A stretch of DNA of 43,766 nt from an uncultured Lachnospiraceae bacterium (GTDB lineage Bacteria > Bacillota > Clostridia > Lachnospirales > Lachnospiraceae): NCBI GenBank assembly GCA_947630485.1, contig CANRHU010000024.1, positions 1 to 43,766 of the forward strand. The letters are read 5' to 3'. The number at the start of each line of letters is the position of its first letter. Positions within the stretch are counted from its first letter, which is position 1. The notes below the pieces were generated by a model. The model saw only the letters and a program-made list of their open reading frames with translations, was not told the DNA's origin and did not search any database. The position numbers and the translations under genes are program-made. Positions 27,842 to 43,680 of the stretch are shown one piece after another.

Positions 27842-27916
27842 CGGGGTGTGGCTCAGTTTGGCTAGAGCGCCTGGTTTGGGACCAGGAAGTCGCAGGTTCA
27901 AATCCTGTCACCCCGA
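27842..27916 (+). tRNA. tRNA-Pro (anticodon UGG)
   Basis: Cloverleaf complete: acceptor CGGGGTG/CACCCCG, D-arm GCTC/GAGC, anticodon stem CCTGG/CCAGG with loop TTTGGGA, T-arm GCAGG-TTCAAAT-CCTGT, discriminator A. CCA is not encoded. Confidence 0.97.
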
Positions 27917-27926
27917 TGTAATTTCT

Positions 27927-27997
27927 GCAGGTGTGGTTCAATGGTAGAACACTAGCCTTCCAAGCTGGATACGTGGGTTCGATTCCCATCACCTGCT
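27927..27997 (+). tRNA. tRNA-Gly (anticodon UCC)
   Basis: Acceptor GCAGGTG/CACCTGC, D-arm GTTC/GAAC, anticodon stem CTAGC/GCTGG with loop CTTCCAA, T-loop TTCGATT, discriminator T. CCA is not encoded. Ten bases after tRNA-Pro. Confidence 0.97.
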
Positions 27998-28005
27998 CTT
28001 TTCCT

Positions 28006-28079
<74 letters not shown>

Positions 28080-28094
28080 TTTGTAATTTAATAT

Positions 28095-28169
28095 GGTGGG
28101 TATAGCGCAGCTGGTTAGCGCGCCAGATTGTGGCTCTGGAGGCCAAGGGTTCGAATCCCTTTATCCACC
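28095..28169 (+). tRNA. tRNA-His (anticodon GUG)
   Basis: Acceptor GTGGGTA/TATCCAC with the extra G at position -1 (28095) facing discriminator C, D-arm GCGC/GCGC, anticodon stem CCAGA/TCTGG with loop TTGTGGC, T-loop TTCGAAT. CCA is not encoded. Confidence 0.97.
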
Positions 28170-28178
28170 CTCGATAAG

Positions 28179-28282: not shown

Positions 28283-29416
28283 CTATACGGAATCGATAAA
28301 AGCGCTTATATAGTAAAGCGCCGCCCCCAGGGCCGGAGTATACGGTCCGGAGTGCCCTACGCGCAGCTGGTCCTCGGTCAGCGGCCATGGCGTCAGCGCA
28401 TTGATCATATCCAGCAAAAGCTGGATATCTTCTTTTGTGATATACGATACAAGGTAGCCGGCCAGGATGAAGACGCCGTCCAGGGTCACGCTCAGATTGC
28501 GGATTACGAAAGCCAGCTTGCTCAGATAATCCGACCAGATCCGCCTGAGTTCCGGCGCGTTGGTCTCCCGCATGACCCTGAAAAAGGAGGCGATATCCAT
28601 ACCGGATTCCTTTTCCAGCCGTTCCGCGGAACAGTAAGTTTCCAGACAGCCCCGTTTGCCGCAGTAGCATAAAGGCCCGTCCGGATGCATGCAGGTGTGT
28701 TCGATGAGACCGCTCCGCATATGATCGCCCCACTGGACGACGCGGTTGGTGATCACGACGCTGCCCAGGTTCTGATTCAGCAGAAAGAGGACGCCGTTGC
28801 GGATGTCCGGCAGATTCCATAAGGCCAGATTGCCCGCCGCCTTGGAATCGTGCTCCATTCTGCAGGGGAACGGCACGTAAGGTTTGATGTCGTCCAGTGT
28901 CATCTGGGAGTTGTGCATCAATACGCCGTAGTTTACACTGTGTCCGTCGCGGGAAACAATGCCCTGGACGGCGATGGACACGCCGAGAATCTTCTTCTCG
29001 TCGATGGCATGGCTGCTGATAAACTGCTGCAGATGTTCCCCGACGCTTTTGTAATAATCCGCGGCGTGCTCATAGGGAATCGGATAGGTGTCCTTATAGA
29101 TCATATGTCCGTACAGATCCGCGGCCACATAGTGAAGCCGGTCGCTCAAAATTCCGATGCCAATGGCGATGCGCGCTACCGGATCGATCTGGATTCTATT
29201 TGCCCGCCGCCCGCCGGTTGATTCGAAAAAGCCGTCAAATTTGATCAGACCTTCTTCGTTCAGAGCAGCCAGATTGTAGCTGACTGTCGAAAGTCCCATC
29301 TCAAGAAGCTGGACCAGCTGAAATTTGGAAGTGGTGCCTTCCTGGTAGATCATTCGGTATACCCGGTTGCGGTTGATTTTCTTGATGTTTGAGGCGGTAA
29401 CGCGGCCTTCGTTCAT
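28283..29416 (-). CDS. ROK-family transcriptional repressor
   Basis: A 377-residue regulator. Residues about 8-75 form a winged helix-turn-helix (NRVYRMIYQEGTTSKFQLVQ, GLSTVSYNLAALNEEGLI); the rest is a ROK sugar-kinase-like domain. The zinc signature CYCGKRGCLETYCS is intact, whereas the phosphate-binding DxGxT of true kinases is replaced (IGIGILSDRLHYV) and the usual NDANAA reads EHDSKAAG, so it should bind a ligand without phosphorylating it. GGAGAGA precedes the start. It diverges from the nine-gene operon at 29774 and is probably its repressor. The ligand is unknown, probably a sugar-like molecule. Confidence 0.9.
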   Translation of the reverse strand: MNEGRVTASNIKKINRNRVYRMIYQEGTTSKFQLVQLLEMGLSTVSYNLAALNEEGLIKFDGFFESTGGRRANRIQIDPVARIAIGIGILSDRLHYVAADLYGHMIYKDTYPIPYEHAADYYKSVGEHLQQFISSHAIDEKKILGVSIAVQGIVSRDGHSVNYGVLMHNSQMTLDDIKPYVPFPCRMEHDSKAAGNLALWNLPDIRNGVLFLLNQNLGSVVITNRVVQWGDHMRSGLIEHTCMHPDGPLCYCGKRGCLETYCSAERLEKESGMDIASFFRVMRETNAPELRRIWSDYLSKLAFVIRNLSVTLDGVFILAGYLVSYITKEDIQLLLDMINALTPWPLTEDQLRVGHSGPYTPALGAALYYISAFIDSV

Positions 29417-29442
29417 ATTTTCTCTCCAATCAAAACGCTTTT

Positions 29443-29456
29443 ACTTAAATGTAAGT
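29443..29456. promoter_or_regulatory. operator-like dyad at the ROK promoter
   Basis: ACTTA-AATG-TAAGT, a perfect dyad lying just downstream of the ROK -10 box (between promoter and start codon). It shares half-sites with the dyad at the operon promoter. Confidence 0.55.
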
Positions 29457-29465
29457 CTTTTCCCT

Positions 29466-29494
29466 ATTCTAAATGAGTTAGCGGACGATTGCAA
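29466..29494 (-). promoter_or_regulatory. promoter of the ROK gene
   Basis: On the minus strand: TTGCAA (29494-29489), 17-base spacer, TAGAAT (29471-29466). Transcription would start around 29459, right at the dyad. Confidence 0.6.
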
Positions 29495-29665
29495 GTACAA
29501 ATTGAAAAATGATGGCGAAAACCGGAAAAATATGCCGATAATGCACAAGAATCAGGCAAATGGGAACCTTGAAAATGGAATACAAAACGATGAAAATAAA
29601 GAAAATTCAAAAAACTTTGGATAATATGCATAAAAATGACGTGATATGTTTGATAATAATTCCTA

Positions 29666-29694
29666 TTGAAAAAATAACAAATATCCCTTACTAT
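29666..29694 (+). promoter_or_regulatory. promoter of the nine-gene catabolic operon
   Basis: TTGAAA (29666-29671), 17-base spacer, TACTAT (29689-29694). The start of transcription falls near 29701, inside the large dyad. Confidence 0.6.
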
Positions 29695-29696
29695 TA

Positions 29697-29729
29697 ACTT
29701 ATGCTTAGTTCATAACTGTAAGTATAAGT
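29697..29729. promoter_or_regulatory. operator-like dyad at the operon promoter
   Basis: ACTTATGCTTA (29697-29707) and TAAGTATAAGT (29719-29729) are inverted repeats matching at 10 of 11 positions, 11 bases apart, and cover the start of transcription. Confidence 0.6.
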
Positions 29730-29773
29730 GGCAGAAGGCGCTGCAGCGATAAGCGCAGATGGGAGTGAGTCAG

Positions 29774-30853
29774 GTGAAAGGAACTTATTTTTTAGGAAAC
29801 GGAGAGTTTGAGGTTCGTGATATGGAATTTGCGCCGCTTGAGGCCGGCGAGGTGCTTGTGCGCGTGGCCGCCTGCGGAATCTGTGGGACGGATGTACATA
29901 TTTTTCATGGGGACAAGGGTTCCGCTGAGGTGGTTCCGCCGGTGGTGCTTGGTCATGAATTGTCCGGCGTGGTGGAACAGGTCGGTCCGGACGTGGATAT
30001 GGTCTCCGTCTCTGACCATGTGGTTGTGGACCCGAACATTTATTGCGGGATCTGCCGGCCGTGCCAGATGGGCAAAAAGCAGCTGTGCGAGCATCTGAGC
30101 GCGATCGGAGTTACGAGGAACGGAGGTTTCGCGGAATATTGCGTCGTACCGCAGGCGCAGTGTTTTAAGGTGGACAGAGAGATTCCTTTTGAACAGGCGG
30201 CGATGGCAGAACCGCTTGCCTGCTGTATCCATGGAATTGACCGGGCGGGAATTCGTCCGGGGAGCGCCGTCTGTGTGGTAGGCGGAGGCGCAATCGGACT
30301 GATGATGGTTCAGTTAGCCAAGCTGGCCGGCGCGGCATCGGTGGTTCTAAGCGAACCGATTGAATTTCGCCGCCGTGTTGCCCTGGAGGTAGGGGCGGAT
30401 GCGGTGATCAATCCGGTTGAAGAGAATTTGGCTGAACGCTATATGGAGATCACAGGCCTGGCGGGAGCGGATGTGGTGATTGAGTGCGTCGGCAATACGA
30501 CAGCGGTCAGGCAGGCCTTCGAAGCGGCCGGGAGAGGCGCGATGGTTCTGTTGTTCAGCGTGCCGAAGCCGGATACCTTCCATCAGCTGTCTCTGGACGA
30601 GGTATATCACAAGGAGCTGAACATTGCCGGTTCCCTGATTGATCCGGACACCTTTTTGAGGGCGGTCGCCCTGCTGAACGAGGGCCGGATTAAGCTGGCG
30701 CCGATTATTACCCACGCGTTCCCGACAGCAAGACTGAAAGAGGCGATTCTGATGCAGATGAGCGATGAATCCATCAAGGTCGTCGCCATGCCGGAGCTTG
30801 CGGATGTATGGTGCGGCCTGCAGGAGGAAGAGCGGAATCGGGTTCTTGTATAA
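29774..30853 (+). CDS. zinc-dependent medium-chain dehydrogenase (polyol/sugar alcohol type)
   Basis: A 359-residue MDR-family dehydrogenase. It has the catalytic zinc motif GICGTDVHIF and GHELSG, the structural zinc cysteines in YCGICRPCQMGKKQLC, the family motif MAEPLACCIHGI, and the NAD-binding CVVGGGAIGLMMVQ. This pattern fits sorbitol/threonine-type dehydrogenases that oxidise a secondary alcohol to a ketone, but the substrate cannot be named. GTG 29774 is preferred, with GGGAGTG eight bases upstream; an ATG at 29759 would include that site. It is the first gene of the operon, so it probably acts directly on the imported compound. Confidence 0.88.
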   Translation: MKGTYFLGNGEFEVRDMEFAPLEAGEVLVRVAACGICGTDVHIFHGDKGSAEVVPPVVLGHELSGVVEQVGPDVDMVSVSDHVVVDPNIYCGICRPCQMGKKQLCEHLSAIGVTRNGGFAEYCVVPQAQCFKVDREIPFEQAAMAEPLACCIHGIDRAGIRPGSAVCVVGGGAIGLMMVQLAKLAGAASVVLSEPIEFRRRVALEVGADAVINPVEENLAERYMEITGLAGADVVIECVGNTTAVRQAFEAAGRGAMVLLFSVPKPDTFHQLSLDEVYHKELNIAGSLIDPDTFLRAVALLNEGRIKLAPIITHAFPTARLKEAILMQMSDESIKVVAMPELADVWCGLQEEERNRVLV

Positions 30854-30933
30854 AGCGGCAGGCAAGGCAAAAAGCGCCGGGAAACGCATAAGGCGGAAGC
30901 CTGGCGGCCGCAGGATGTGAAAGGGGGAGGAAG

Positions 30934-31908
30934 ATGACGAAAGCTAAGAAAAAAGACGCTTCGCTGAAAGCGCCTCTAAAAACCAGACTCAGACAGGATT
31001 TAAAGTACATCCGACGCCATCCCGCGATGTATCTGATGGTCGTTCCGGGACTGACGGTTCTGCTGATTCACAAATTCATTCCTTATTATGGAATTCTGAT
31101 CGCTTTTAAGGATTATAACATTTTTGCAGGAAAGAACCCGCTGGACGCGATCGGGGCCAGCGAGTGGGTGGGAACCTATTGGTTTGAGAAACTGTTCAGC
31201 GGCAGAGATTTCATGAAGGTACTGAAGAATACGCTGATTATCAATTTTTCTAAAATTTTGTGGATATTCCCTATCCCCATTCTCTGCGCGATCATGCTCA
31301 ATGAGATCGAGCGCAAGACGTATAAAAGACTGGTCCAGACGGTCATCTATGTACCGCACTTCTTTTCCTGGGTGATCGTGTACGGCATTTTCCTGTCGCT
31401 GCTGGCTACGTCGGGCGTTGTGAATGAATTGCTGATCGCTTTGGGATTCAATAAAATCAATTTCTTTACCAACACGGAGGTATTCCGGGGAATCCTGGTT
31501 TTCACGGAGGGCTGGAAATCCATCGGACACACGGCGATCGTCTATCTGGCGGCGATCACGGGGCTGGATATGGAGCTGTTCGACGCGGCGAGAGTTGACG
31601 GCGCGGGGAGGCTTAAGCAGATCTGGCATATCACGCTTCCGGGAATTCTGCCGTCGATTGTGCTGATGCTGATCCTGAAGGTCGGACATATTCTGGACCA
31701 TGGGTTTGAGCAGGTGCTTTTGTTCTACAACTCTACGGTCTATGAGGTGGCTGATATTATCCAGACCTACGTGTACCGTCAAGGTATCGGACGCATGGAA
31801 TTCTCGTATTCCGCCGCGCTTGGCCTGTTTAACTCGGTGGTGGCTTTTATACTGATTGTCGGAGCCAACGCGATCAGCAAGAAGACCCTGCACCGAAGCA
31901 TTTGGTAG
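30934..31908 (+). CDS. ABC transporter permease, LplB/YteP type
   Basis: A 324-residue inner-membrane permease with six helices and the coupling EAA motif DAARVDGAGRLKQIWHITLPG (start near residue 214). The N-terminal DLKYIRRHPAMYLMVVPG and PYYGILIAFKDYNIF are characteristic of the LplB branch of carbohydrate importers, which bring in oligosaccharides or substituted sugars. AAAGGGGGAGG precedes the start. It pairs with the next permease and the lipoprotein; no ATPase gene is in the operon, so a shared MsmX-like ATPase elsewhere is expected. Confidence 0.93.
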   Translation: MTKAKKKDASLKAPLKTRLRQDLKYIRRHPAMYLMVVPGLTVLLIHKFIPYYGILIAFKDYNIFAGKNPLDAIGASEWVGTYWFEKLFSGRDFMKVLKNTLIINFSKILWIFPIPILCAIMLNEIERKTYKRLVQTVIYVPHFFSWVIVYGIFLSLLATSGVVNELLIALGFNKINFFTNTEVFRGILVFTEGWKSIGHTAIVYLAAITGLDMELFDAARVDGAGRLKQIWHITLPGILPSIVLMLILKVGHILDHGFEQVLLFYNSTVYEVADIIQTYVYRQGIGRMEFSYSAALGLFNSVVAFILIVGANAISKKTLHRSIW

Positions 31909-31950
31909 AAGTCCGGAAAGAAGCAGTGAATTGTTGAAAGGGTGGGGAGA

Positions 31951-32850
31951 ATGAAAAACCATAGCCGGCGATCCTCCGGACCGCCAAGAGGAAAACAGGA
32001 TAAACTTGTAACCGCGTGTTCGTATCTGATTATGACTGTGATGGGACTGCTTTGTCTGCTGCCTTGTCTGCACGTCGTATCAAAGGCGTTCAGCAGCAAC
32101 ACCGCGGTCACGCTGGGAGAGGTGTATTTCTGGCCGAACGGATGGCAGACGGACGCGCTGAAATATGTGCTGCTCCAGACAGATTATCTGAACGCGCTGA
32201 AAAACAGCGTGATTGTGACGATAATCGGCGTTGTGTGCAGTATGGTGATCACGGTTCTGTTTGCGTATCCGCTGTCCGAACCCCAATTTCGGGGGCGCCG
32301 TCTGCTGACGCTTCTGTGCATGGTCGCGATGGTTTTTTCAGGCGGCATGGTTCCTACTTATATGGTGTTTCGCAGCCTTGGATTTCTGAATACGTATAAG
32401 GCGCTCATCATACCGCATCTGTTAAGTATATTTAATCTGCTGATTGTGAGGAACTCCTTCGAAGGACTTCCGGACGGCGTGAAGGAATCCGCCCGGATCG
32501 ACGGGGCGGGGGACTTCCAGGTGCTTACCACGATTGTCTGCCCTATGTCAAAGCCGGTTTTGGCGACGGTGAGCATGCTCTACGCGGTCAATTACTGGAA
32601 CAGCTATTTTGACGCGGCGCTGTACATTACCAATGATAAGCTCAAGACGATACAGGTGTATCTGAAAAATGTGACGGCTGATATCAACGCGGTGTCAGAG
32701 GCGCTGAAAAGCATGACGGGAAAAACGATTCACACGGACGGAATGATTGCGTGTGCGGTAACGCTGACGGTGATACCGATCATTATGGTATATCCGTTTG
32801 TACAGAGGTATATGGTTCAGGGAATTACGATCGGCTCGGAGAAGGGATGA
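31951..32850 (+). CDS. ABC transporter permease, LplC/YtcP type
   Basis: A 299-residue partner permease with six helices. Typical stretches: FSGGMVPTYMVFRSLGF, LIVRNSFEGLPDGVKESARI (coupling loop) and AVNYWNSYFDAALYI. ATG 31951 is chosen; GGGTGGGGA lies just upstream and a GTG at 31942 would overlap it. The basic Arg-rich start (KNHSRRSSGPPRG) is cytoplasmic. It follows the first permease by 42 bases. Confidence 0.92.
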   Translation: MKNHSRRSSGPPRGKQDKLVTACSYLIMTVMGLLCLLPCLHVVSKAFSSNTAVTLGEVYFWPNGWQTDALKYVLLQTDYLNALKNSVIVTIIGVVCSMVITVLFAYPLSEPQFRGRRLLTLLCMVAMVFSGGMVPTYMVFRSLGFLNTYKALIIPHLLSIFNLLIVRNSFEGLPDGVKESARIDGAGDFQVLTTIVCPMSKPVLATVSMLYAVNYWNSYFDAALYITNDKLKTIQVYLKNVTADINAVSEALKSMTGKTIHTDGMIACAVTLTVIPIIMVYPFVQRYMVQGITIGSEKG

Positions 32851-32941
32851 GCCGGAAAGGGAATGGTCATAAGGGCGTCGGCCCTGTGATAGAGAAAAAG
32901 ACGCAGCAAAACCAGGTAGTGAAAAAGGAGGAGAATTCGTA

Positions 32942-34612
32942 ATGAAGAGAAGAATGGTAGCGGTATTTTTGACGACAGCTCTGATTCTGTCATCGCTGAC
33001 AGGCTGCGGCGGCGGAAACAGCGGAAAACAGCAGGAGGCGGCGACGACAGCGGCGGCTGCTGCGGAGACCACGACGGCTGCGGCGGCAGAGACAACGGCG
33101 GCTGAGGAGACAGAGACGACGCAGGCTCTCCCGGAAGTGCCGGAACTGAAAGGGCCGGGAAACGTCACTCTGCAGATTCTTCGGCAGGCCACAAGCGTGG
33201 ATCTGAACGCCAGACCGGAGGCCGCGGCGATTTCGGAGGTAACGGGTTATGAGACGTATTACACGTCGCTGAATGACGATGAGTCAACGACCTCCCTGAT
33301 GCTTCAGGTTTCTTCGGGAACCGATGTGGATATGGTGGCACTGACACCGTTCCAGTTTAATACGCTTAAGAAAAACGGAGCGCTGACACCGCTTAACGAC
33401 CTTCTTCAGGTGTACGGCCAGGAGATTTTAAGCGGCGTATCGGAGGATTCCTGGCGCGCGGTCACGGATGCAGACGGTATGATCTACGGCGTGCCGATGC
33501 GTTATCCCTACGCGGACAATATGACCCGGTTTATTCTGTGCCGGATGGATCTGATGGAAGCGGCCGGAATTACGGAGGTTCCGACTACGTTGGACGAGTT
33601 CTATAATGATCTGGTCACCTTGAAGGAGTATTACGGATATGATTATATCCTGACCGGTCCCGGCAAGGCGAATGCAGGTTCCGGCGGCGACGCAAGCCTT
33701 GGTTCGTTTACCGTTCCGATCGCGATTGCTTCCGCATTCGGTCTTTGGAGCACATGGATGGTAGACGACGACGGAAATGTAATTTACATCACCGAGACAG
33801 ATGGATTCGCGGAAATGATGGAGTTCATGAAAAAGCTGATGGATGAAGGTCTTCTGGATCCGGATTGGGCGACGAATACTTCCACAACGCTGGGCGAAAA
33901 GTTCAGTTCCGGCCAGGCGATCATGATGGCGTCCTCGGTAGGAACCATTTCCTCCGCCGTTACGGCGCTTCCTGAGGCAGACCCGAATGTAATCTGGAAC
34001 GGAAGCGAGGATGACAATATCGGATATATCTTTGCCCTGAAGGGCGCGGACGGACAGTCCTGCTACGCCAGGATCAATACCATTTCCGGAATCACCAGCG
34101 TCCTGCGTACTTCGGACAATGCGGCGGACTGCGTGAACTTCCTGAATGAGAAGGTGAAGAATCAGCGCTATATCGTGATCGGTACAGAGGGCGAAACCTA
34201 TGAGATCGACGAAGACGGACTTCCCGTTCCGATCCAGCCGGCATTCGACGAGAACAGACTTAGAGGAGACAAGTTCCAGGATTGTATGAATGAAGAAGAG
34301 TACGCGTGGGAGTGGCAGGCACGTGCTAGGAAGAATCTGAACAACTGGCTTCCGTTAAAGGCGGCGAAGGCAGAAGCTGAGAAGAACCCGGGAGTGCTGA
34401 TCGACGACCCGTTCTCTCTGATGCCGCTAATGGACAATTACGCGGACCACAACGATACGCTGTACAGCGCGCTGAATGATTTCTGCGAGCAGATTATGTA
34501 CGGAAGCAAGACCCTGGACAATCTGGATGAGTTTACCGCCGACTGGCAGTTCAATGAAGGCGAAGCCGTCCGGGAAGAGCTGCAGGAGTATTATGACGCG
34601 AACTTCAAATAA
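32942..34612 (+). CDS. lipoprotein solute-binding protein, LplA type
   Basis: A 556-residue extracellular binding protein. The lipobox SLTGCGGG puts the lipid-modified Cys at residue 23. A long Ala/Thr/Glu linker follows (about 32-60, TTAAAAETTAAEETETTQA), encoded by imperfect GCG/ACG repeats. The mature domain is of the large (over 500 residues) LplA-like group, with DVDMVALTPFQFNTLKKNGA and NVIWNGSEDDNIGYIFALKG. These large proteins bind oligosaccharides or decorated sugars. AAAGGAGGAG precedes the start. Being the only exported protein in the operon, it determines what enters. Confidence 0.9.
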   Translation: MKRRMVAVFLTTALILSSLTGCGGGNSGKQQEAATTAAAAAETTTAAAAETTAAEETETTQALPEVPELKGPGNVTLQILRQATSVDLNARPEAAAISEVTGYETYYTSLNDDESTTSLMLQVSSGTDVDMVALTPFQFNTLKKNGALTPLNDLLQVYGQEILSGVSEDSWRAVTDADGMIYGVPMRYPYADNMTRFILCRMDLMEAAGITEVPTTLDEFYNDLVTLKEYYGYDYILTGPGKANAGSGGDASLGSFTVPIAIASAFGLWSTWMVDDDGNVIYITETDGFAEMMEFMKKLMDEGLLDPDWATNTSTTLGEKFSSGQAIMMASSVGTISSAVTALPEADPNVIWNGSEDDNIGYIFALKGADGQSCYARINTISGITSVLRTSDNAADCVNFLNEKVKNQRYIVIGTEGETYEIDEDGLPVPIQPAFDENRLRGDKFQDCMNEEEYAWEWQARARKNLNNWLPLKAAKAEAEKNPGVLIDDPFSLMPLMDNYADHNDTLYSALNDFCEQIMYGSKTLDNLDEFTADWQFNEGEAVREELQEYYDANFK

Positions 34613-34634
34613 TACATAGGGGGGAGAATCAGAC

Positions 34635-36530
34635 ATGAAAGACAGTCAGGAGTGTATGGGTTCGGAATTGCTTCTGGAAGTGACTTTTGATCAGATTCTG
34701 GCCCATACCGTTTCCTCCCGAGTCGGAAATGACGGACTTCTCCACGGCGATGCGGATACGATGCTGTCGGAAAGCTATGACGGCACACCAGCTTTATACT
34801 TCAACAACAGAGCGGGCATTTTGCCCGCTCATGAGTATGTAGATTTCGGCAATATCCCGACAGACGGCGATGATTTCTCCATCCAGCTTTGGATAAGGAC
34901 AAGCCGGGACGGCTGCAATGGGTGGAGCGCGAGGGCGACATGGGTGGAGCCGGAAGGTGTCATCGATGTCAGCAGCTTTGACGAAAAGCAGCGGACGCAT
35001 GGGGGCGTGCTGCTGGCAAACGCCCCCTTTGGCGATCCCGGCCATCGTGGAATCGTACTTGCGTGCATGCAGCAGTATCTGTCCTTCATGACCAGCGTAA
35101 ATACGGGAGAAGGACATGAACCGGTTCAGGTAAGCGGAATGAAGAAGGCTGCGGACGACCGCTGGCATCAGATTACGGTCGTCTGCGCCCGAAGCGGGAC
35201 GGAGAAAATCTATCTGGACGCGTCTCTGGAAGAGGAAGCGGATCTCTCGGCTTTCGCGGGGCTTTCCCTGGACGGAGGAAATTTTATCCTGGGGGCCGAC
35301 GCGGACGGAATGCTGGGACTTGGAGAAGCGGCGGTAGGCGAACTGAGGATTTACCGAGGGCTGCTGAATCCGGAGCAGATCGACGGACGTTATTACGCAT
35401 CGGCGGTGCTGGGACTGGTCCATGAATTTGAGAAGACCGATTTCAGCCGGGATGAACGTTTCGGTATGGAAGCGGTGCAGGCGCTTCGTTTCGAAGCGGA
35501 AGACGTGCGCCGGAAGGCGCTGCTTCTCCGCGGCAGGGCGGACGGCGGCGGATGCCTGCAGGAGGCGAAGAACCTTTACGAGGCTTTCCGAAGCCGCTAC
35601 GAGAGCTTTCTGCAGGGAGAAAACAGGCCGGTGTTCCGATTCATGCTTTTCTCCGACGCCCATGTGGAAGGAGAGGGAGGAGAGCGCCAGCAGGCGCTGA
35701 AATCCGCGATGGAATGGGCCGGCGAGCTGGGGATGGACGCTTATGTGGACGCGGGAGATTATTCCAACTTCGGAGAAGATGAGGAGAGGGACGCGTATTG
35801 GAATGTGGTAACGGCGCTTCGGGGAACAATGAAGCCGTTGGTGTCTTTGGGCAACCACGAGACCTATAAACGTCCCGGAAAAGAGATTAAGGCGTATCAT
35901 CTGCGGAAGCTTAAGGAAGCGGGGATGATACCGGAAGATCACGATGAGTTTTATTTTGAATATGAGATAGAGGGATATCATTTTCTGATTTTGTCCCAGT
36001 ATAACGACCGGTATGAGATTCCGGGAAGACATGGAAAATGGGTGACAAACGGCTGTACGGAGATCGATGAGAAGCAGTTTGACTGGGTTGAGGAGCGCCT
36101 GGGGCGGTATTGCGGAAAGGGGAAGCCGGTTTTTCTGGTGATTCATAACGCGGTCAGGGAGGTGCTGAATGAACAGTCACAGGGAGATTACCCGGAATGG
36201 CAGGTGATTCAGAACGGCGACAGATTCTATGAGATGTGGAGCCGTTTCCCGGATATCGTGCTGATCACCGGTCATGTGCATCACGGTCTGGGAGACTGCT
36301 GCGGCGTCTGCCGGACGGCGGCGGGATATCATGTGATCGATGTCCCGGCTTTCTGCGGCAGTCCGAAGGGATACGGTCATTCGAAATTTACGCGAATGCT
36401 GCCCAAGCACGGCGGATATTTTGTCAGCGTCTATCCGAAGGGAATCTACCTGCGGGCGGTGGATTTCGTATCCCGCGAGTGGCTGACGGCTTATGATCAG
36501 ACGATTCGGATACCCGCAGGCGGAGAGTGA
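34635..36530 (+). CDS. LamG-like domain fused to a metallophosphoesterase
   Basis: A 631-residue two-part protein without a signal peptide. Residues about 10-255 look like a concanavalin/LamG jelly-roll (ALYFNNRAGILPAHEYVDFG, FSIQLWIRTSRD, DRWHQITVVCARSGTEKIYL, GELRIYRGLLNPEQI). After a helical linker, residues about 333-600 form a calcineurin-like phosphoesterase with all metal motifs: SDAH (Asp341, His343), AGDYSN (Asp375), GNHE (Asn407, His408), IHN (His504) and GHVHHG (His547, His549). It should hydrolyse a phosphomonoester or diester, with the jelly-roll perhaps holding a glycan. LamG domains are usually outside the cell, so a cytoplasmic fusion is uncommon. It follows the binding protein by 22 bases. 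Confidence 0.82.
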   Translation: MKDSQECMGSELLLEVTFDQILAHTVSSRVGNDGLLHGDADTMLSESYDGTPALYFNNRAGILPAHEYVDFGNIPTDGDDFSIQLWIRTSRDGCNGWSARATWVEPEGVIDVSSFDEKQRTHGGVLLANAPFGDPGHRGIVLACMQQYLSFMTSVNTGEGHEPVQVSGMKKAADDRWHQITVVCARSGTEKIYLDASLEEEADLSAFAGLSLDGGNFILGADADGMLGLGEAAVGELRIYRGLLNPEQIDGRYYASAVLGLVHEFEKTDFSRDERFGMEAVQALRFEAEDVRRKALLLRGRADGGGCLQEAKNLYEAFRSRYESFLQGENRPVFRFMLFSDAHVEGEGGERQQALKSAMEWAGELGMDAYVDAGDYSNFGEDEERDAYWNVVTALRGTMKPLVSLGNHETYKRPGKEIKAYHLRKLKEAGMIPEDHDEFYFEYEIEGYHFLILSQYNDRYEIPGRHGKWVTNGCTEIDEKQFDWVEERLGRYCGKGKPVFLVIHNAVREVLNEQSQGDYPEWQVIQNGDRFYEMWSRFPDIVLITGHVHHGLGDCCGVCRTAAGYHVIDVPAFCGSPKGYGHSKFTRMLPKHGGYFVSVYPKGIYLRAVDFVSREWLTAYDQTIRIPAGGE

Positions 36531-36543
36531 GAGGAAATACGGA

Positions 36544-37116
36544 ATGGAAATTTATGTGGTCAGACATGGACAGAGCGAGGCGATGGTAAACGGAGCCCAC
36601 GCGGGCTGGGGACCGACGCCGCTCAGCCCGCTGGGGATGGAACAGGCAGAGACCGCGGGAAGACAGCTTGACGGGATTCCGTTTGATAAAGTGTACGTAA
36701 GCGATCTGCTGAGGACAAGACAGACGGCGGAGCGCGTCTTCCCTGGACATGCGTACATCCTTGAGCCGCGCGTCCGGGAATTCAGTTCCGGCGAGTTGGT
36801 GGGAAGGCGTGTCGCGGAGTGTAAGGCAGAGATGGGAGAGCCCTATATCCGGGCGCTTCGGGAGAACGACTATACTGCCTATGGCGGGGAAAATGAGGAT
36901 ATGGTGGCGTCGCGCGTCCAAAGCTTCCTGGGAGATCTGGAAAAGGACGAGGCGGACGGGTGCAGGCGGGTCGCCGTCGTCTGTCATGAAGGAGCGATAC
37001 GCCATATACTGTATGAAGTTCTGCAGTGCCGGTTCTCTAAACAGAGAATCCGGACGGACTGCTGCTGTATCGTCAGGCTGGAGTGCCTCAATGGGAACTG
37101 GAAACTGCATTTCTGA
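36544..37116 (+). CDS. histidine phosphatase family protein (phosphoglycerate-mutase-like)
   Basis: A 190-residue phosphatase with the catalytic RHGQSE (His8 is the phosphate acceptor), SDLLRTRQTAERV, and the second histidine in VVCHEGAIRHIL. This is the broad-specificity PhoE/CobC branch rather than true phosphoglycerate mutase. ATG 36544 has GAGAGGAAA upstream; earlier in-frame codons overlap the previous gene without conserved content. It sits 13 bases after the LamG-phosphoesterase, giving two phosphatases in a row, which hints at successive dephosphorylation of the substrate. A Cys-rich stretch TDCCCIVR lies near the C-terminus. Confidence 0.88.
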   Translation: MEIYVVRHGQSEAMVNGAHAGWGPTPLSPLGMEQAETAGRQLDGIPFDKVYVSDLLRTRQTAERVFPGHAYILEPRVREFSSGELVGRRVAECKAEMGEPYIRALRENDYTAYGGENEDMVASRVQSFLGDLEKDEADGCRRVAVVCHEGAIRHILYEVLQCRFSKQRIRTDCCCIVRLECLNGNWKLHF

Positions 37117-37127
37117 GGAGGAGAAGG

Positions 37128-38459
37128 ATGAAATACGATGTAATTGTTGTAGGCGGAGGACCGGGCGGAATTCCGGCCGCCATAGCGGCAAGACGGATGG
37201 GGATGCGGACTCTTTTGGTGGAACGGAGCGCGGTGCTGGGCGGTCTTGCCATCTCGGGTCTGCCGATTCTTGGATTTATCGACCATTCCGGCAGGCGCGT
37301 GCTTGGAGGAATTGCCGAAGAGTTAATGATGCGCCTGAAAAAGGTAGGCGCTTTCCGTGAACATGTCAGATGTCCGGTTCACAACAGCCTGGCCCTGTAT
37401 AATCACAATTGGATGCGGATCGAATGCTTCGAGCTGTGCCGGGAGGAAGGCGTGGAGCTGGCCCTGTATTCGGACCTGATGTCCGTTAAAGTGGATAACG
37501 GAAAGGTGCGCGGCATTACGGTTCTTTGCCGGGGTGAGGTCCGGGAATATGAAACGCAGATTCTGATTGATGCGACGGGAGACGGCGTGGCGGCCTATAT
37601 GGCCGGGGCGCGGTATCAGAAAAGCAACAGTCTGCAGCCGGGCTCCCTGACCTTCACGATGGGACATGTGGATATCCCCGCTGTTCTGGCATACATGAAG
37701 GCCCATCCGGAGACCATTGAGGTTACCAAAGATTACGATGTGCATCAGAACCTGTCGCAGTTTGACAAGGGCTGGGGTTTTACGTTTATCGGATTTTCTG
37801 AATTTATCCGCAAGGCGCAGGAGTGCGGGGAATACACGATTCCAAGGGATCGGATCGTCTTTTCGACGCTCCCGGATGAGGGGGAGGTCATGGTCAATGT
37901 CACGAGGGTTACGGATGTGGACACCTCTGTGGCGGACGATGTGATCCGGGCGGAAACGGAAAGCCACCGCCAGGTGAAAGAGCTGGTGCTTTTCCTCAGA
38001 AAGTACTGCCCCGGTTTTGAGAAATCCTATCTGTCCAGCCTGTCTTATGGCTTCGGTGCCCGGGAAAGCAGGAGAATCGAGGGAATTAAGACGCTGACTG
38101 TCGATGCGTTAAAGAATCTGGATGTTCCGGAGGATACGATTGTCCTCGCGGGATATAACATGGATATACATCCCACGAATACGGAGCAGCATTTCATGCA
38201 GCCGGTAGAAAAGGCGATTGGAATTCCTTACGGCTGTCTGGTCAGCAGCAGCGTGGGAAGTCTTATGATGGCCGGAAGGGATATTTCCGTCGATGAACAT
38301 ATCTTTGGCCTGACCCGGATTATGGGCACGTGTATGGGCGCCGGGGAAGCCGCGGGAACAGCGGCGGGCATGGCGGTCCGGGACGGTATCGAACCGGCAG
38401 AGGTCGATGTGCAAAAGCTGCGGAACATACTTCGTGAAAACGGCTGTATTCTGGAATAA
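37128..38459 (+). CDS. FAD-dependent oxidoreductase (FAD_oxidored family)
   Basis: A 443-residue flavoprotein. The FAD-binding dinucleotide motif is VIVVGGGPGGIPAAIAARRM (residues 5-24), followed by LVERSAVLGGLAISGLPI; the second FAD contact is ILIDATGDGVAAYMAGA; the C-terminal FAD segment is GTCMGAGEAAGTAAGMAV. This matches the pfam12831-type FAD-dependent oxidoreductases frequently seen in sugar-catabolic clusters of Firmicutes and Bacteroidetes, whose substrates are mostly unknown. No signal peptide, so cytoplasmic. GAGGAGAAGG precedes ATG 37128. Confidence 0.88.
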   Translation: MKYDVIVVGGGPGGIPAAIAARRMGMRTLLVERSAVLGGLAISGLPILGFIDHSGRRVLGGIAEELMMRLKKVGAFREHVRCPVHNSLALYNHNWMRIECFELCREEGVELALYSDLMSVKVDNGKVRGITVLCRGEVREYETQILIDATGDGVAAYMAGARYQKSNSLQPGSLTFTMGHVDIPAVLAYMKAHPETIEVTKDYDVHQNLSQFDKGWGFTFIGFSEFIRKAQECGEYTIPRDRIVFSTLPDEGEVMVNVTRVTDVDTSVADDVIRAETESHRQVKELVLFLRKYCPGFEKSYLSSLSYGFGARESRRIEGIKTLTVDALKNLDVPEDTIVLAGYNMDIHPTNTEQHFMQPVEKAIGIPYGCLVSSSVGSLMMAGRDISVDEHIFGLTRIMGTCMGAGEAAGTAAGMAVRDGIEPAEVDVQKLRNILRENGCILE

Positions 38460-38474
38460 GGTTGAGGAGGAAAA

Positions 38475-39227
38475 ATGGTACATTCATTCTTGCTGATCGG
38501 CCAGTCCAATATGGCTGGAAGAGGACATGCGGACGAGGTGGAGCCGATCGTCAATGATCGGATCAAGGTGCTGCGCAATGGGCGCTGGCAGCCCATGTAT
38601 GTTCCGGTCAATCCGGACAGACGCACGTCGGGCGTGTGCCTAGCGGAGAGCTTCGCGGACGCCTATACGAAGGATCATGACGCGGAAGTCGGACTGATAC
38701 CCTGCGCGGACGGGGGGACGGCGCTGTGCCAGTGGATGCCGGGAGAGCTTTTGTTTGACCATGCCCTTATGCAGTGCCGGCTGGCGATGAGGACATCTGA
38801 GCTTGCGGGAATTCTGTGGCATCAGGGCGAAGGAGACTGCCGCGAGGGCAGGTATCTTGTCTATGAGGAAAAGTGCCGGAAAATGTTTACGGTGCTGCGT
38901 GAGGAACTGGGGCTTCCCGATGTGCCGATTCTGGTGGGCGGCCTGGGAGACTTTCTGGTCGAATTTACAAAGAAGGAAATATCCGTGAATTATATGAAGG
39001 TCAACGCGGCCCTGCAGAATGTGGCCGCGACGCTGCCAAGATGCGGCTTTGTGTCCGCCGAAGGCCTGACAGCCAATCCGGAGATCATTCATTTTAACGC
39101 GGTGTCTCTGCGGGAATTCGGTCTGCGCTATTATGAAAAGTTCCGCGAACTGGAGGACAGAAACCGCGTTTATCAGGAGAAGGAAGACAAAACCGCACAG
39201 GAGGTTACGGGACTGGAGGCGCTGTGA
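38475..39227 (+). CDS. SASA-type carbohydrate esterase (sialate O-acetylesterase-like)
   Basis: A 250-residue SGNH-fold esterase. The nucleophile block is GQSNMAGRG with Ser11; further blocks are IPCADGGTALCQW, ILWHQGEGDCREG and the C-terminal IIHFNAVSLREFGLRYYE with the candidate catalytic His. This fits the DUF303/SASA family, which removes acetyl groups from sugars such as sialic acid or xylose. Unlike most members it has no signal peptide, so the acylated substrate would be handled after import. The normal Asp before the His (D-x-x-H) is not obvious: the sequence reads NPEIIHFN. Its stop overlaps the sulfatase start (TGATG). Confidence 0.83.
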   Translation: MVHSFLLIGQSNMAGRGHADEVEPIVNDRIKVLRNGRWQPMYVPVNPDRRTSGVCLAESFADAYTKDHDAEVGLIPCADGGTALCQWMPGELLFDHALMQCRLAMRTSELAGILWHQGEGDCREGRYLVYEEKCRKMFTVLREELGLPDVPILVGGLGDFLVEFTKKEISVNYMKVNAALQNVAATLPRCGFVSAEGLTANPEIIHFNAVSLREFGLRYYEKFRELEDRNRVYQEKEDKTAQEVTGLEAL

Positions 39228-40645
39228 TGAAACATATCCTGATCCTGTTTACGGACCAGCAGCGCTATGACACGATAGGCGCGCTCGGCAATCCGGCGAT
39301 GCAGACTCCCCACCTGGACGCCCTGCTTAAGGAATCAACGGTTTTCCGCCGCTGCGTCACGCCGTCGCCGGTCTGCGTCCCCGCGAGATTTTCCATGCTG
39401 ACCGGACAATATCCGGCGCGCACCGGCAACAACAACAATAACAATCAGACGGTTTATCAGGGAGAGGGCGTTTATTCCCGCCTGACTGCCGGAGGATATC
39501 AGAGCTGCTGCGTCGGAAAGATGCACCACGTGTTTGATAAATACGGCCCGATTGGCTTTGAGAAGCGTTGGACGCAGGAGGAGATGGCGGCCGCGGAGGA
39601 TGATTATACAAGGTATATCCGGGCAAGGTATCCGCATGTGTTTGATTATCACGGTATGCGCAGCGAGATGTATTATGTGCCGCAGATATCGCCGCTTTCG
39701 CCGGCCGATCATCCGACCCAGTGGGTGGGGGACCGCAGTGTGGAATATATTGAACGCTGTGATCCGTCGCGGCCTATGCTTTTAATGTCCTCCTTTATCC
39801 ATCCGCATCCTCCATTCAGTCCTCCGGCACCGTGGCAGAAGCTGTATCGGGAGGAGCCGCCGGAGCCGTTTGCTCCGGAAGAGGAAGAGCTGAGTGATTA
39901 TTGGGAGTTGATCGGAGACCGCTGCTCCTGCAAGCGCCTGATGATGAGCCCGCAGGATGTGCTGCGGATGAAAAATTTCTATTATGCCTGCGTGTCCTTT
40001 GTGGATTATCAGGTGGGGCGTATAATCGCCGCCCTGAAGAAAAAGGGGATTTATGAAGATACGCTGATTCTCTTTGCGAGCGACCACGGGGATATGATGG
40101 GTGATTATCACGCCACGGGAAAGCGGACGATGGTGGACGCCGCCTGTCACATTCCGTTTCTCATCCGCTATCCGGGACGGGGTCACGAGTTGTGCGACGA
40201 CGTCTGTTCTCTGGTGGATGTGGCCCCTACGCTTTTGGGGTATGCGGGAATTGCGTATGATCCGGCAGAATTCGACGGAATTGACCTGTTCGGCGCGCGA
40301 AGCCCCCGGTACGTCTACTCTCAGTATGGAAGCGGGGACAGAGGGGTTTATATGGTGACGGATGGGGAATGCAAGCTGATTCAGAATATGCGGTCAGGCC
40401 GGTACTTTTTCTTTGAAACGATACCGGAGAGGCAAAATACATATTCGGAGAACAATCAAAAAGCGCAGGAGCTTAGAAAGGCGCTGGACGGATACCGCAG
40501 TTCAGACGCGGCTCCGGATCCGTCCGGAGGAACCCGGGAGGCGGTAATCAGGCATCCTCACTATATGGGCCGGGTGGATCACCGGCTGCTGCATGACGAG
40601 GAGGCAGCGGCCATTCCCGAAGGATATCATATCGATCTTTCATAA
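39227..40645 (+). CDS. cytoplasmic Cys-type sulfatase (S1 family)
   Basis: A 472-residue type I sulfatase. Calcium ligands are in FTDQQR (Asp10) and SDHGDMMGDYH (Asp286, His287); the residue to be turned into formylglycine is Cys50 in PSPVCVPARFSMLTG, the C-x-P-x-R form. In anaerobes this needs an anSME radical SAM maturase, which is not in the window. There is no signal peptide, so desulfation takes place inside the cell. A run of six Asn follows the active site (ARTGNNNNNNQTVY, about residues 66-71). It is the last gene of the operon and its ATG overlaps the esterase stop. Phosphonate hydrolase activity of related enzymes cannot be excluded. Confidence 0.9.
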   Translation: MKHILILFTDQQRYDTIGALGNPAMQTPHLDALLKESTVFRRCVTPSPVCVPARFSMLTGQYPARTGNNNNNNQTVYQGEGVYSRLTAGGYQSCCVGKMHHVFDKYGPIGFEKRWTQEEMAAAEDDYTRYIRARYPHVFDYHGMRSEMYYVPQISPLSPADHPTQWVGDRSVEYIERCDPSRPMLLMSSFIHPHPPFSPPAPWQKLYREEPPEPFAPEEEELSDYWELIGDRCSCKRLMMSPQDVLRMKNFYYACVSFVDYQVGRIIAALKKKGIYEDTLILFASDHGDMMGDYHATGKRTMVDAACHIPFLIRYPGRGHELCDDVCSLVDVAPTLLGYAGIAYDPAEFDGIDLFGARSPRYVYSQYGSGDRGVYMVTDGECKLIQNMRSGRYFFFETIPERQNTYSENNQKAQELRKALDGYRSSDAAPDPSGGTREAVIRHPHYMGRVDHRLLHDEEAAAIPEGYHIDLS

Positions 40646-40651
40646 TATACT

Positions 40652-40706
40652 GCCGGCAGGGACTTTGAGGAATTCCATATATTCTTCTTGCCTGCCGGCG
40701 CTTTTT
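40652..40706 (+). terminator. terminator of the catabolic operon
   Basis: GCCGGCAGG (40652-40660) and CCTGCCGGC (40691-40699) form a 9-bp perfect stem with a 30-base loop, followed by GCTTTTTG. Confidence 0.75.
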
Positions 40707-40736
40707 GTGCTAATATAATTATGCTTTTGATATTGT

Positions 40737-40778
40737 TGGGCCATCGCCAAGCGGTAAGGCACAGGACTTTGACTCCTG
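40737..40778 (+). tRNA. tRNA-Gln (UUG) fragment at an integration junction
   Basis: The 5' part of tRNA-Gln is intact: acceptor 5' strand TGGGCCA, D-arm GCC/GGC with AAGCGGTAA, anticodon stem CAGGA/TCCTG with loop CTTTGAC. After position 40778 the sequence changes to TTTGTGGCTTCCGACCGC and has no T-arm and no TGGCCCA to close the acceptor. An integrase gene follows 170 bases on, so this is the probable left end of an integrated element. Confidence 0.75.
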
Positions 40779-40947
40779 TTTGTGGCTTCCGACCGCTTTA
40801 AGTATGCGAAAGCAGATAGTCAAAAAATCCTTGTGAAATCGTTATATTTCGTTTTCTTCTTACTTTTACACCATCTTGTATTATTCCCGAAAAGGTATTA
40901 AAATAAGATTAAAGTGTGCGAAAAAGTGTGCGAAAGGTGGTGCGAGT
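40779..40947. promoter_or_regulatory. element left end and integrase promoter
   Basis: AT-rich, no gene. The integrase promoter is TTGTAT (40876-40881), 17 bases, TAAAAT (40899-40904). Just after it stands an exact tandem repeat of AAGTGTGCGAAA (40912-40923, 40924-40935), directly upstream of the ribosome binding site AAAGGTGG. Confidence 0.55.
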
Positions 40948-42150
40948 ATGTTAGATCATACGGAATTCGGTTTTGACAGAGACAAAGGCCGACACAGGTG
41001 TTACTGTTCTGTACCATCCGTGAGAATGGCGAACGGAAAGGCATGGAGGCCTTCTGCGTATGGGAAGACGAAGCGGGAAGCGCGTGAGAAGCTAGAGGCA
41101 AAGATCATAGCGAAGGAGAAAAGTCTTCAGGTTCCAGAGAGCAAAGATATTCTGAAAAACGCAATCCGAAGCTATAACTTGCGGACGGCTGTTGATAAAG
41201 GGAATACGGCATCAACCATAGAATATCTGAACCGTGTCCTGAGAAAACAGATCGAGCCTTATGAACTAGCTAATATGAATGTTCAAGAAGTTGAGCATGA
41301 GGACGTGCTTAATTATATTATGGAACTGAATGAAGATGGCGTCAGCAAGGCAATGCAGAAGAAGGCATATAATGTACTAACAGGCTTCTTTGCGGATTAC
41401 TATAGGAAAAGCCCGGCTCTTAACCCGGCTTATGGGATTAAATTTGCCAGCGGCGTTAAGAAGGTAGAGATATCCCAGATCATGAACGATGAAGAAATCG
41501 AGCGGTATTTTGAGGCGTGCGAGAAGGCATTGGAAGAATATCTGCCAGATGGCTCCAAGAATCCAGCGTATGAACCGAATGCAGATTTGCTAGAGGTACT
41601 TATACTAACCTATATGCGGAGTGGAGAAGCACTCGCGTTGACCTATGAAGATTGGCTTCCGAATGACAGCAGTTTCATCATATATAAGACAATTAGCAGA
41701 GATATAGATGGAAAGACGATCGTTGAAAAGCATACGAAGACCAGCGCTTCCAGAAGAACACTGAAATGTAGTGATTTGATTGTATCCATTATCTCGGCGA
41801 GACAGGCACAGGCTGATATAATAGAAGAGGAATGGAAACCAGCGTCTTATATCTGGCATGGAGAGAATGATCTATACAAGCCATTAAGCAGGACTGCATT
41901 AAAATTATTGCATAGGCGTATCTTGGATTCTGCCGGAATAGAAAAACACATTCGGGTACATGATCTCCGCCATACGGGAATCAGTTACTTTTTACGACAT
42001 GGAAGCCCGCTTGCGGAAGTCAGTAAACGGGCTGGACATAGCAGACAAAGTATAACTGCCGATATTTACAGTCATGTGCTTGATGAAACATTATCCAAGC
42101 AGAGCGAAAGAGAGTCAGAAATTGCCGGGAAGCTGATCACCTTGTTTTGA
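40948..42150 (+). CDS. int: tyrosine recombinase (integrase)
   Basis: A 400-residue phage/ICE-type integrase. The N-terminal part contains an AP2-like arm-binding region (FDRDKGRHRCYCSVPSVRM) and a SAM-like core-binding domain (about 80-180). The catalytic domain has Arg224 (YMRSGEAL), His338 and Arg341 (HDLRHTG), His364 (GHSRQS) and the nucleophile Tyr374 (DIYSHVLDETL), all intact. ATG 40948 is chosen because the promoter start and AAAGGTGG both lie after the longer upstream frame's TTG at 40876. Codon use is more AT-rich than in the chromosomal genes to the left. It lies beside a truncated tRNA-Gln, its likely target. Confidence 0.92.
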   Translation: MLDHTEFGFDRDKGRHRCYCSVPSVRMANGKAWRPSAYGKTKREAREKLEAKIIAKEKSLQVPESKDILKNAIRSYNLRTAVDKGNTASTIEYLNRVLRKQIEPYELANMNVQEVEHEDVLNYIMELNEDGVSKAMQKKAYNVLTGFFADYYRKSPALNPAYGIKFASGVKKVEISQIMNDEEIERYFEACEKALEEYLPDGSKNPAYEPNADLLEVLILTYMRSGEALALTYEDWLPNDSSFIIYKTISRDIDGKTIVEKHTKTSASRRTLKCSDLIVSIISARQAQADIIEEEWKPASYIWHGENDLYKPLSRTALKLLHRRILDSAGIEKHIRVHDLRHTGISYFLRHGSPLAEVSKRAGHSRQSITADIYSHVLDETLSKQSERESEIAGKLITLF

Positions 42151-42175
42151 TTATATTTGTGTGTGGATTGAGGAG

Positions 42176-42229
42176 GAACCAGTCAAATAACGGTTCCCCG
42201 CGAAGCGGGAACTGTTATCTGACTGGTTC
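42176..42229. repeat. large hairpin 1 between int and mob
   Basis: The left arm (42176-42201, begins GAACCAGTCA, ends CCCCGC) and right arm (42205-42229, begins GCGGGAAC, ends TGACTGGTTC) pair over about 25 bases with one mismatch, one G-U and one bulge, with loop GAA. No T-run follows. It may be a terminator of int or part of an origin of transfer. Confidence 0.7.
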
Positions 42230-42267
42230 TGTTTTGGATGATGGAGGAAGACGCAGAAGCCTCGCAG

Positions 42268-42305
42268 AGCCAGTTCCATTTTCGATGAAAATGGTATAAC
42301 TGGCT
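42268..42305. repeat. large hairpin 2 between int and mob
   Basis: AGCCAGTT-CCATTTTC, loop GAT, GAAAATGG-TAT-AACTGGCT: two consecutive 8-bp stems with a TAT bulge. It ends 60 bases before the relaxase start. Confidence 0.7.
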
Positions 42306-42365
42306 ACACCATTTCTGCCCGAATTGGTTTTCACTTCTTGCATATTCATTTACAGAGGTGATTTT

Positions 42366-43124: not shown

Positions 43125-43144
43125 TACAATACAAGGAGATTACT

Positions 43145-43606: not shown

Positions 43607-43643
43607 CTCCCTTTGGACTAGACATCTGTTAGGGTACAACAAT

Positions 43644-43679
43644 AGAGACAATCCAGATCATCTGGACTGTCTCTTTTTT
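43644..43679 (+). terminator. terminator of the int-mob-hypothetical segment
   Basis: AGAGACA-A-TCCAGA, loop TCA, TCTGGA-C-TGTCTCT, followed by a T-run: 13 pairs with one mismatch. Confidence 0.85.
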
Positions 43680-43680
43680 C

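Follow-up and report, generated by a model that had tools for sequence, protein, structure and literature searches.

Two kinds of described system come closest to the locus considered here. The Bacteroides sulfatases reviewed in PMC10154612 are mostly periplasmic and are encoded alongside SusC/D and glycoside hydrolases, and in Escherichia coli the ycjMNOPQRSTU locus is annotated as encoding a CUT1 binding protein, two permeases, a zinc dehydrogenase acting on sugars, and a nearby repressor. Here, we describe an operon of nine forward-strand genes (29774–40645) and its divergent ROK regulator gene (28283–29416, reverse strand) on contig CANRHU010000024.1 of an uncultured Lachnospiraceae bacterium. 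The window, that is, the whole stretch of DNA that was analysed, is the entire 43,766-base contig, and the draft genome amounts to 3.26 Mb. The operon shares with ycj each of the components just named, and with Bacteroides sulfated-glycan loci (e.g., that of BT1918) an S1 sulfatase, whose closest solved relative uses small sulfated sugars. The gene layout noted earlier is confirmed: nine genes that would form one operon, predicted to be under ROK control. The features are:

28283–29416, reverse strand: ROK-family repressor (PF00480, 67.1 bits; CYCGKRGCLE fits CxCGxxGCxE)
29443–29456, no strand: operator-like palindrome O1, ACTTAAATGTAAGT, on the ROK side of the intergenic region
29666–29694, forward strand: sigma-70-like promoter, TTGAAA-17-TACTAT (consensus match only, 9/12)
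29697–29729, no strand: operator-like palindrome O2, 33 bp, directly 3' of the -10 box
29774–30853, forward strand: zinc-dependent dehydrogenase, MDR family (PF08240, PF00107; zinc-site cysteines)
30934–31908, forward strand: ABC permease, LplB-like (PF00528)
31951–32850 (alternative start 31942), forward strand: ABC permease, LplC-like (PF00528)
32942–34612, forward strand: substrate-binding lipoprotein, lipobox LTGC (PF01547, PF13416; hydropathy)
34635–36530, forward strand: LamG and calcineurin-like metallophosphoesterase (PF13385; no signal peptide seen)
36544–37116, forward strand: histidine phosphatase, branch 1 (PF00300, 133.5 bits; RHGQ and CHEG motifs)
37128–38459, forward strand: flavin adenine dinucleotide (FAD)-dependent oxidoreductase (PF12831, 312 bits; 89–91% orthologue in G019)
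38475–39227, forward strand: SASA/SGNH carbohydrate esterase (PF03629, 161 bits; closest structure 1zmb)
39227–40645 (alternative start 39224), forward strand: S1 sulfatase, Cys type, CVPAR (PF00884, 153.5 bits; no signal peptide seen)
About 40652–40706, forward strand: intrinsic terminator (fold -27.5 kcal/mol, z -4.35)

All ten reading frames are intact and stand in the order given by the first-pass annotation. The likely start of the dehydrogenase is the GTG at 29774, its orthologues beginning MKGTYF; those of the second permease (31951 or 31942), histidine phosphatase (36544), FAD enzyme (37128), and sulfatase (39227 or 39224) are likewise the probable ones. Six of the eight junctions are shorter than 50 nt (gaps of 11–42 nt, or overlapping), and the other two measure 80 and 91 nt, so that the earlier description of gaps mostly under 50 bases stands, whereas its two overlaps at the 3' end come down to one, of 1 or 4 nt, between esterase and sulfatase. 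A terminator scan of the window found no forward-strand terminator-like site within the intra-operon gaps. The terminator beyond the sulfatase gene, which fell outside that scan because its loop is longer than the scan allows, has a 9-bp outer stem and a T run, and only 1 of 200 shuffles folds as well; together with the sigma-70-like match, this is in keeping with the layout of one promoter and one terminator that had been claimed.

The regulator combines a ROK domain and the CxCGxxGCxE motif, the two marks of a ROK repressor, with a weak helix-turn-helix match (residues 15–59, E 5e-4). The pattern H-x11-CxC, which we take to be a second ROK signature, was not found in the protein, which at 97.6 bits lies below the NCBIfam cut-off for the NagC equivalog (650 bits). 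Orthologues are present in relatives (designated here by G numbers, and their loci by L numbers) at 84% identity in G001 and G014 and 58% in G019, and the positions of O1 and O2 are kept in G001 and G014. Allowing up to three mismatches, the O2 pattern matches the genome at this site alone, with 0.06 matches expected by chance. Beyond these sites, ACTT-N6-AAGT occurs in seven of the eight intergenic regions between ROK gene and operon that were compared within the genus (0–9 of 500 shuffles per region), G022 being the one without it, and its centre bases vary between regulator groups. The eight regions come from the ten ROK genes found at E 1e-60, those of G006 and G013 being excluded because, in the stretch covered, the ROK gene does not face a dehydrogenase; the regions of G001 and G014, nearly identical, are both among the eight, and the G003 contig starts inside the FAD gene, which puts its ROK position out of view. 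No site for the longer pattern ACTTA(2-14)TAAGT was found in the ROK promoter of L074. Operator-like sites between regulator and operon thus fit the ROK control proposed earlier, and they argue well for a ROK protein that would act locally through these predicted operators, repressing its own gene together with the operon.

What might such an operon do? We think it probable, though well short of assured, that it serves as a substrate-induced catabolic operon for the import, stripping, and oxidation of a small anionic carbohydrate or polyol. Bound at O1 and O2, the ROK protein would keep its own gene and the operon repressed as long as no sugar-like ligand is present. Uptake of the substrate, a small anionic derivative of a carbohydrate or polyol, would fall to the lipoprotein and the two permeases together with a shared ATPase whose gene would lie elsewhere. 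Inside the cell, sulfate would be removed by the sulfatase, once activated by a maturase such as the genome's own, and acyl groups by the SASA esterase; the LamG-phosphoesterase would open a phosphodiester, the histidine phosphatase would then take off the remaining phosphate, and the FAD enzyme and zinc dehydrogenase would oxidise or isomerise the stripped core, feeding central metabolism. The core of the system would consist of the regulator, the dehydrogenase, the FAD enzyme, and the phosphatase, with sulfatase and esterase as swappable add-ons, and a glycoside hydrolase would be either absent or supplied in trans. The gene content can be seen in the DNA itself, and the chemical steps, their order, and the substrate are read from the protein families. 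The first-pass annotation had proposed a similar logic, with which the operon content agrees; that sulfate, acyl, and phosphate groups sit on one substrate is a part that we only infer.

The importer is of the LplABC (CUT1) carbohydrate type, as had been proposed: two PF00528 permeases accompany a PF01547 lipoprotein with a hydrophobic start and a lipobox. Judged by the hydropathy of the first 40 residues, none of the six enzymes has a hydrophobic start, in keeping with the earlier view that they lack signal peptides, and the hydropathy maximum of the dehydrogenase (2.02 at residue 27) falls within its zinc-site region. The catalytic or metal motifs sought in the enzymes are all present, except for an E in place of a D in the esterase. 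None of the ten proteins passes a curated NCBIfam cut-off among the matches listed (which cover 25 of the 42 families matched by the FAD protein), and the lipoprotein and esterase have no NCBIfam match. The dehydrogenase belongs to the same zinc MDR family as IolM and L-threonine dehydrogenase, but its scores lie far below the curated cut-offs (235 against 450 bits for IolM and 243 against 458 for tdh), and the inositol and threonine dehydrogenase assignments were both rejected on this ground.

The LamG enzyme carries SDxH, GDY, GNHE, IHN, and GHVH, the set of metal-site motifs by which calcineurin-like phosphoesterases are recognized; its metal residues are common to all five aligned sequences, and a homologue at 28–30% identity matches PF00149 at 41.5 bits. 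In a profile search of solved structures, its jelly-roll part also gives weak matches to lectin-like domains of 9b6m (PG1 heavy chain) and tetanus toxin entries (E 0.0021–0.0057), which are put down to a common fold, with no sign of a toxin. The histidine phosphatase, at 81.6 bits, falls below the NCBIfam cut-off for alpha-ribazole phosphatase (163 bits). For the sulfatase, the genome also encodes an anaerobic maturase (TIGR03942, 381 bits against a cut-off of 349, which is also exceeded in 2 of 14 control genomes). A radical SAM protein at 2698–4140 matches the sulfatase-maturase family at 113.9 bits, below cut-off, and presumably resembles a SCIFF-type peptide maturase.

An orthologous, smaller operon is found in one other genome of the genus, G019 (uncultured Lachnospiraceae bacterium, isolate Lapin-023, for which a rabbit origin is suggested). 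Orthologues of the ROK gene and of the first seven operon genes stand there in the same order at 58–89% identity (ROK 58%, dehydrogenase 76%, permeases 85% and 80%, lipoprotein 67%, LamG enzyme 63%, histidine phosphatase 68%, FAD enzyme 89%), and the genome has no match to the sulfatase at E 1e-60 or to the esterase at E 1e-30. Because that locus lacks both, and because relatives of the sulfatase occupy other loci, sulfatase and esterase look like accessories to a core that handles redox and phosphate chemistry. The G019 operon has an inserted gene at L047 8857–13899, whose product of 1,680 residues has a signal-like start and combines leucine-rich repeats of the BspA type, a metallo-beta-lactamase domain resembling ComEC, and a choline-binding repeat. 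We considered and rejected a link of its metallo-beta-lactamase domain to pneumococcal phosphocholine esterase, as the best matches are ComEC-type and CbpE appears only at E 0.009. Related domains adjoin the ROK gene in G014 and G001 (L050, L019) and the histidine phosphatase in G001 (L076). A phosphodiester substrate would be favoured, since the histidine phosphatase is accompanied by a phosphodiesterase-like metalloenzyme both in the window and in G019 and, by way of the metallo-beta-lactamase protein, in G001.

Other relatives keep less of the set. G001, G014, and G003 retain the dehydrogenase (75–76%) and histidine phosphatase (59–64%), but their two PF12831-type enzymes are different ones and their transporter is not orthologous; a 67% sulfatase is among the genes in G001, and G014 and G003 have a sulfatase of a different family (27–29%) on the opposite strand. 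In G010 (L052) and G009 (L053), the divergent ROK/dehydrogenase pair occurs without other operon genes nearby. Loci L054, L058, L059, L060, and L064 added nothing to the counts.

The LamG-phosphoesterase marks a module that recurs outside this operon. There are five such loci in 4 of the 26 genus genomes (the window genome is included in this and all genus counts) and one in G076, of another genus; those outside the window and G019 lie in G022 (two), G006, and G076. All six have a PF12831-type oxidoreductase (called by Pfam for the window, L073, and L074, and by BLAST similarity for L047, L075, and L061) and one or more ABC permeases, four have an SGNH-fold esterase, three a sulfatase, and two a PF01261 TIM-barrel gene. 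Selected Pfam scans and a reading of open reading frame starts showed no glycoside hydrolase among the genes of these loci that they covered. Since the FAD subfamily and the transporter differ between loci, the recurring LamG/FAD/ABC set suggests a functional linkage beyond shared descent. The L074 sulfatase is 70% identical to the one beside the G014 histidine phosphatase, which ties the G001, G014, and G003 group to the LamG loci of G022, G006, and G076. An alignment scan of genome contigs for LamG found three loci and missed those of G022 and G006, and hence was not exhaustive. Near the G076 locus (L061 1241–2293), there is a glycerol-3-phosphate-dehydrogenase-like gene (PF01210/PF07479), by reading between two DeoR-like genes, which might hint at a glycerophospho substrate.

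The gene set is rare and patchy, as the low genome counts of its genes indicate. Within the genus, the dehydrogenase is found in 19 genomes at E 1e-80 and in 6 at 71% identity or more, the ROK protein in 10 (four of them at 58% or more), the FAD enzyme in 6 at E 1e-40 (only that of G019 is close, at 90%, the rest being 31–32%), the histidine phosphatase in 5 at E 1e-30, the LamG enzyme in 4 at E 1e-10, and the SASA esterase in 2 at E 1e-30. The sulfatase is present in 8 of 145 relatives at E 1e-60, the window genome included. Family-wide, 2 of 299 genomes have the LamG enzyme at E 1e-40, a count based on roughly one genome for each genus, with none of G019, G022, and G006 among its matches. 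The histidine phosphatase is confined within the genus to genomes having this dehydrogenase (at least 71%), a co-occurrence with a Fisher p of 9.1e-5 among genomes that are related and so not independent.

Several findings weigh against the import, strip, and oxidise reading. About 1.6 genome matches to the O1 pattern TACTTANNNNTAAGT are expected by chance (uniform bases) and one is found; with at most one mismatch, the window alone has one match against 0.33 expected, and 25 of 100 shuffles hold at least one such looser site, so that the uniqueness of O1 carries little weight by itself. The window LamG enzyme does not match PF00149 at E 0.001, and only its motifs and homologues mark it as a putative phosphoesterase. 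The seventh LamG homologue, from locus L070 in an Oscillospiraceae genome, is larger, has a signal-like start, and lies near none of the partners, which leaves the PF12831 oxidoreductase and LamG-phosphoesterase sharing a locus in six of the seven LamG loci looked at. The esterase, which has the PF03629 domain and GQSN block of a SASA esterase, reads E-I-I-H; in the G011 orthologue and in 1zmb the first position is D, presumably the catalytic residue of a DxxH motif. The G001 histidine phosphatase lies on a different contig from the ROK locus. Finally, the operon has no kinase, lyase, or glycoside hydrolase (the last absence had been claimed before and holds at operon level), and its route to central metabolism would therefore be incomplete.

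The alternative that survives best, which we regard as possible but doubtful, is host-glycan scavenging, in which a sulfated, O-acetylated N-acetylhexosamine (HexNAc) fragment of mucin or glycosaminoglycan would be processed with glycoside hydrolases from other loci. The sulfatase, placed in the S1 Cys type by PF00884 and its C-x-P-x-R motif, has 7oz8 as its closest solved structure (175.5 bits, and best again with a family profile at 201.7 bits); this is BT1918, an S1_46 3-O-sulfo-N-acetylglucosamine (GlcNAc) sulfatase requiring the N-acetyl group, as given in PMC10154620 and PMC10154612, although the similarity is low and makes S1_46 a candidate assignment. It stays below the cut-offs for choline sulfatase (180 against 433 bits) and PRK13759 arylsulfatase (240 against 481). 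Its six other orthologues share 54–68% identity, and three of them (G022, G016, and G006:C1) adjoin a TIM-barrel and a BadF-type gene, called by Pfam in L017 and L022 and, in L020, by BLAST for the TIM-barrel and by reading for the BadF-type gene; two weak matches (G071 and G138, 34–36%) were not counted as orthologues. The BadF-type ATPase family includes GlcNAc kinases. On the strength of BT1918 and these neighbours, a sulfated HexNAc derivative would be the first candidate substrate, at low confidence. Elsewhere in the same genome (L080 3766–13767), three sulfatase genes, permeases, and a binding protein share a locus with a GH2 gene, so an operon free of glycoside hydrolases need not mean a pathway free of them, and the SASA orthologue in G011 sits with GH2 and a GH5-like gene. 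Host-glycan scavenging would, however, leave the phosphatases and two oxidoreductases superfluous, and nag-type genes are absent from the operon.

Rather unlikely, in our judgement, is an oxidoreductive, non-hydrolytic route, by which the FAD enzyme and zinc dehydrogenase would work on a hydroxyl of the ring, giving a keto intermediate that permits cleavage or epimerisation, in a logic resembling that of the E. coli ycj pathway. The pairing of a zinc dehydrogenase with CUT1 permeases, as annotated in ycjNOPQRS, speaks for it, as do the TIM-barrels in two LamG loci and the absence of glycoside hydrolases noted for those loci. The dehydrogenase, however, matches YcjQ at 32% over 154 residues only, and a ycj-type glycoside redox locus (YcjQ/YcjR/YcjS) was rejected, as no window protein matches YcjR or YcjS at E 1e-3. 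PF12831 is moreover distinct from the GMC family and has scarcely any literature, its accession occurring in one paper of the open-access library searched, and we know of no role assigned to the PF12831 oxidoreductase or the LamG-phosphoesterase. A bolder form, which we consider unlikely, would make the operon a new intracellular pathway independent of glycoside hydrolases, opening a sulfated, acylated, phosphodiester-linked glycoside by phosphate removal and redox cleavage or epimerisation. Its LamG enzyme would represent a new family of sugar phosphodiesterases and would remove the phosphate together with the histidine phosphatase, PF12831 would oxidise the ring hydroxyl, and the zinc dehydrogenase would complete the cleavage or epimerisation; if this were true, PF12831 would gain a defined role.

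It is decidedly improbable that the operon is a loose assembly, a polyol repressor/dehydrogenase pair to which other genes were added without a common substrate. The pair does stand alone in G010 and G009, and sulfatase and SASA relatives occur in other contexts, but the LamG/FAD/ABC set recurs, mostly with an esterase or sulfatase, despite varied transporters and FAD subfamilies, and gene order is conserved in G019. A signalling or phosphate-scavenging role for the LamG enzyme and histidine phosphatase (cyclic nucleotide or purple-acid-phosphatase-like) is very improbable, for although there are weak matches to Rv0805 (E 1.7e-4, with the LamG profile against solved structures) and purple acid phosphatase (E 6.8e-5), in two genomes the genes of both enzymes are part of a sugar-type operon that adjoins a ROK gene, and in the genus the histidine phosphatase keeps to genomes with this dehydrogenase.

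A cluster of tRNA genes for Pro, Gly, Arg, and His (four genes, 27842–28170) lies immediately upstream of the ROK gene. At the other end, the stretch 40736–43766 holds what looks like one half (5') of a tRNA-Gln and, after it, genes for a tyrosine integrase (40876–42150) and a Mob/Pre-like relaxase (42324–43124), all named from reading the sequence; ARAGORN reports no tRNA there. The G+C content of this stretch is 44%, against 54% in the operon region and 55% in the contig to the left of it. The operon terminator thus seems to be adjoined by an integrated mobilisable element, whose far end lies past the contig.

With the import, strip, and oxidise operon as the favoured reading, what is known and what is new can be separated. 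All the genes come from known families or superfamilies, and the layout of a repressor, a CUT1 importer, and intracellular enzymes is of a known kind; new are the operator-like palindromes, the recurring LamG/FAD/ABC module, and, as far as the literature searched shows, the gene combination itself. The first-pass annotation knew of no pathway with a matching set, and the open-access literature searched held no description of this gene combination or of loci such as L073, L074, L075, and L061. The set is not confined to this locus, which is a mosaic of a recurring module. A recurring gene set can now be named in uncultured gut Lachnospiraceae, with operator-like sites, a smaller orthologous operon, and candidate substrates, and solving the operon would assign a function to a flavoprotein family and reveal which decorated molecule the bacteria draw from the contents of the gut.

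Set against the other Lachnospiraceae loci (L073, L074, L075, and L061), the operon has in common the FAD oxidoreductase, ABC import, and LamG enzyme, with a GDSL/SGNH esterase in three of the four and a sulfatase in two, whereas their transporters are non-orthologous, their PF12831-type enzymes are unlike that of the window, and two have a TIM-barrel. Compared with Bacteroides loci, the sulfatase here is of the Cys type, shows no signal peptide, and has neither SusC/D nor glycoside hydrolase partners. Compared with ycj, whose dehydrogenase and permeases are distantly similar, the operon lacks the Gfo/Idh/MocA dehydrogenase, TIM-barrel epimerase, and phosphorylase, and adds an FAD enzyme, phosphatases, a sulfatase, and an esterase.

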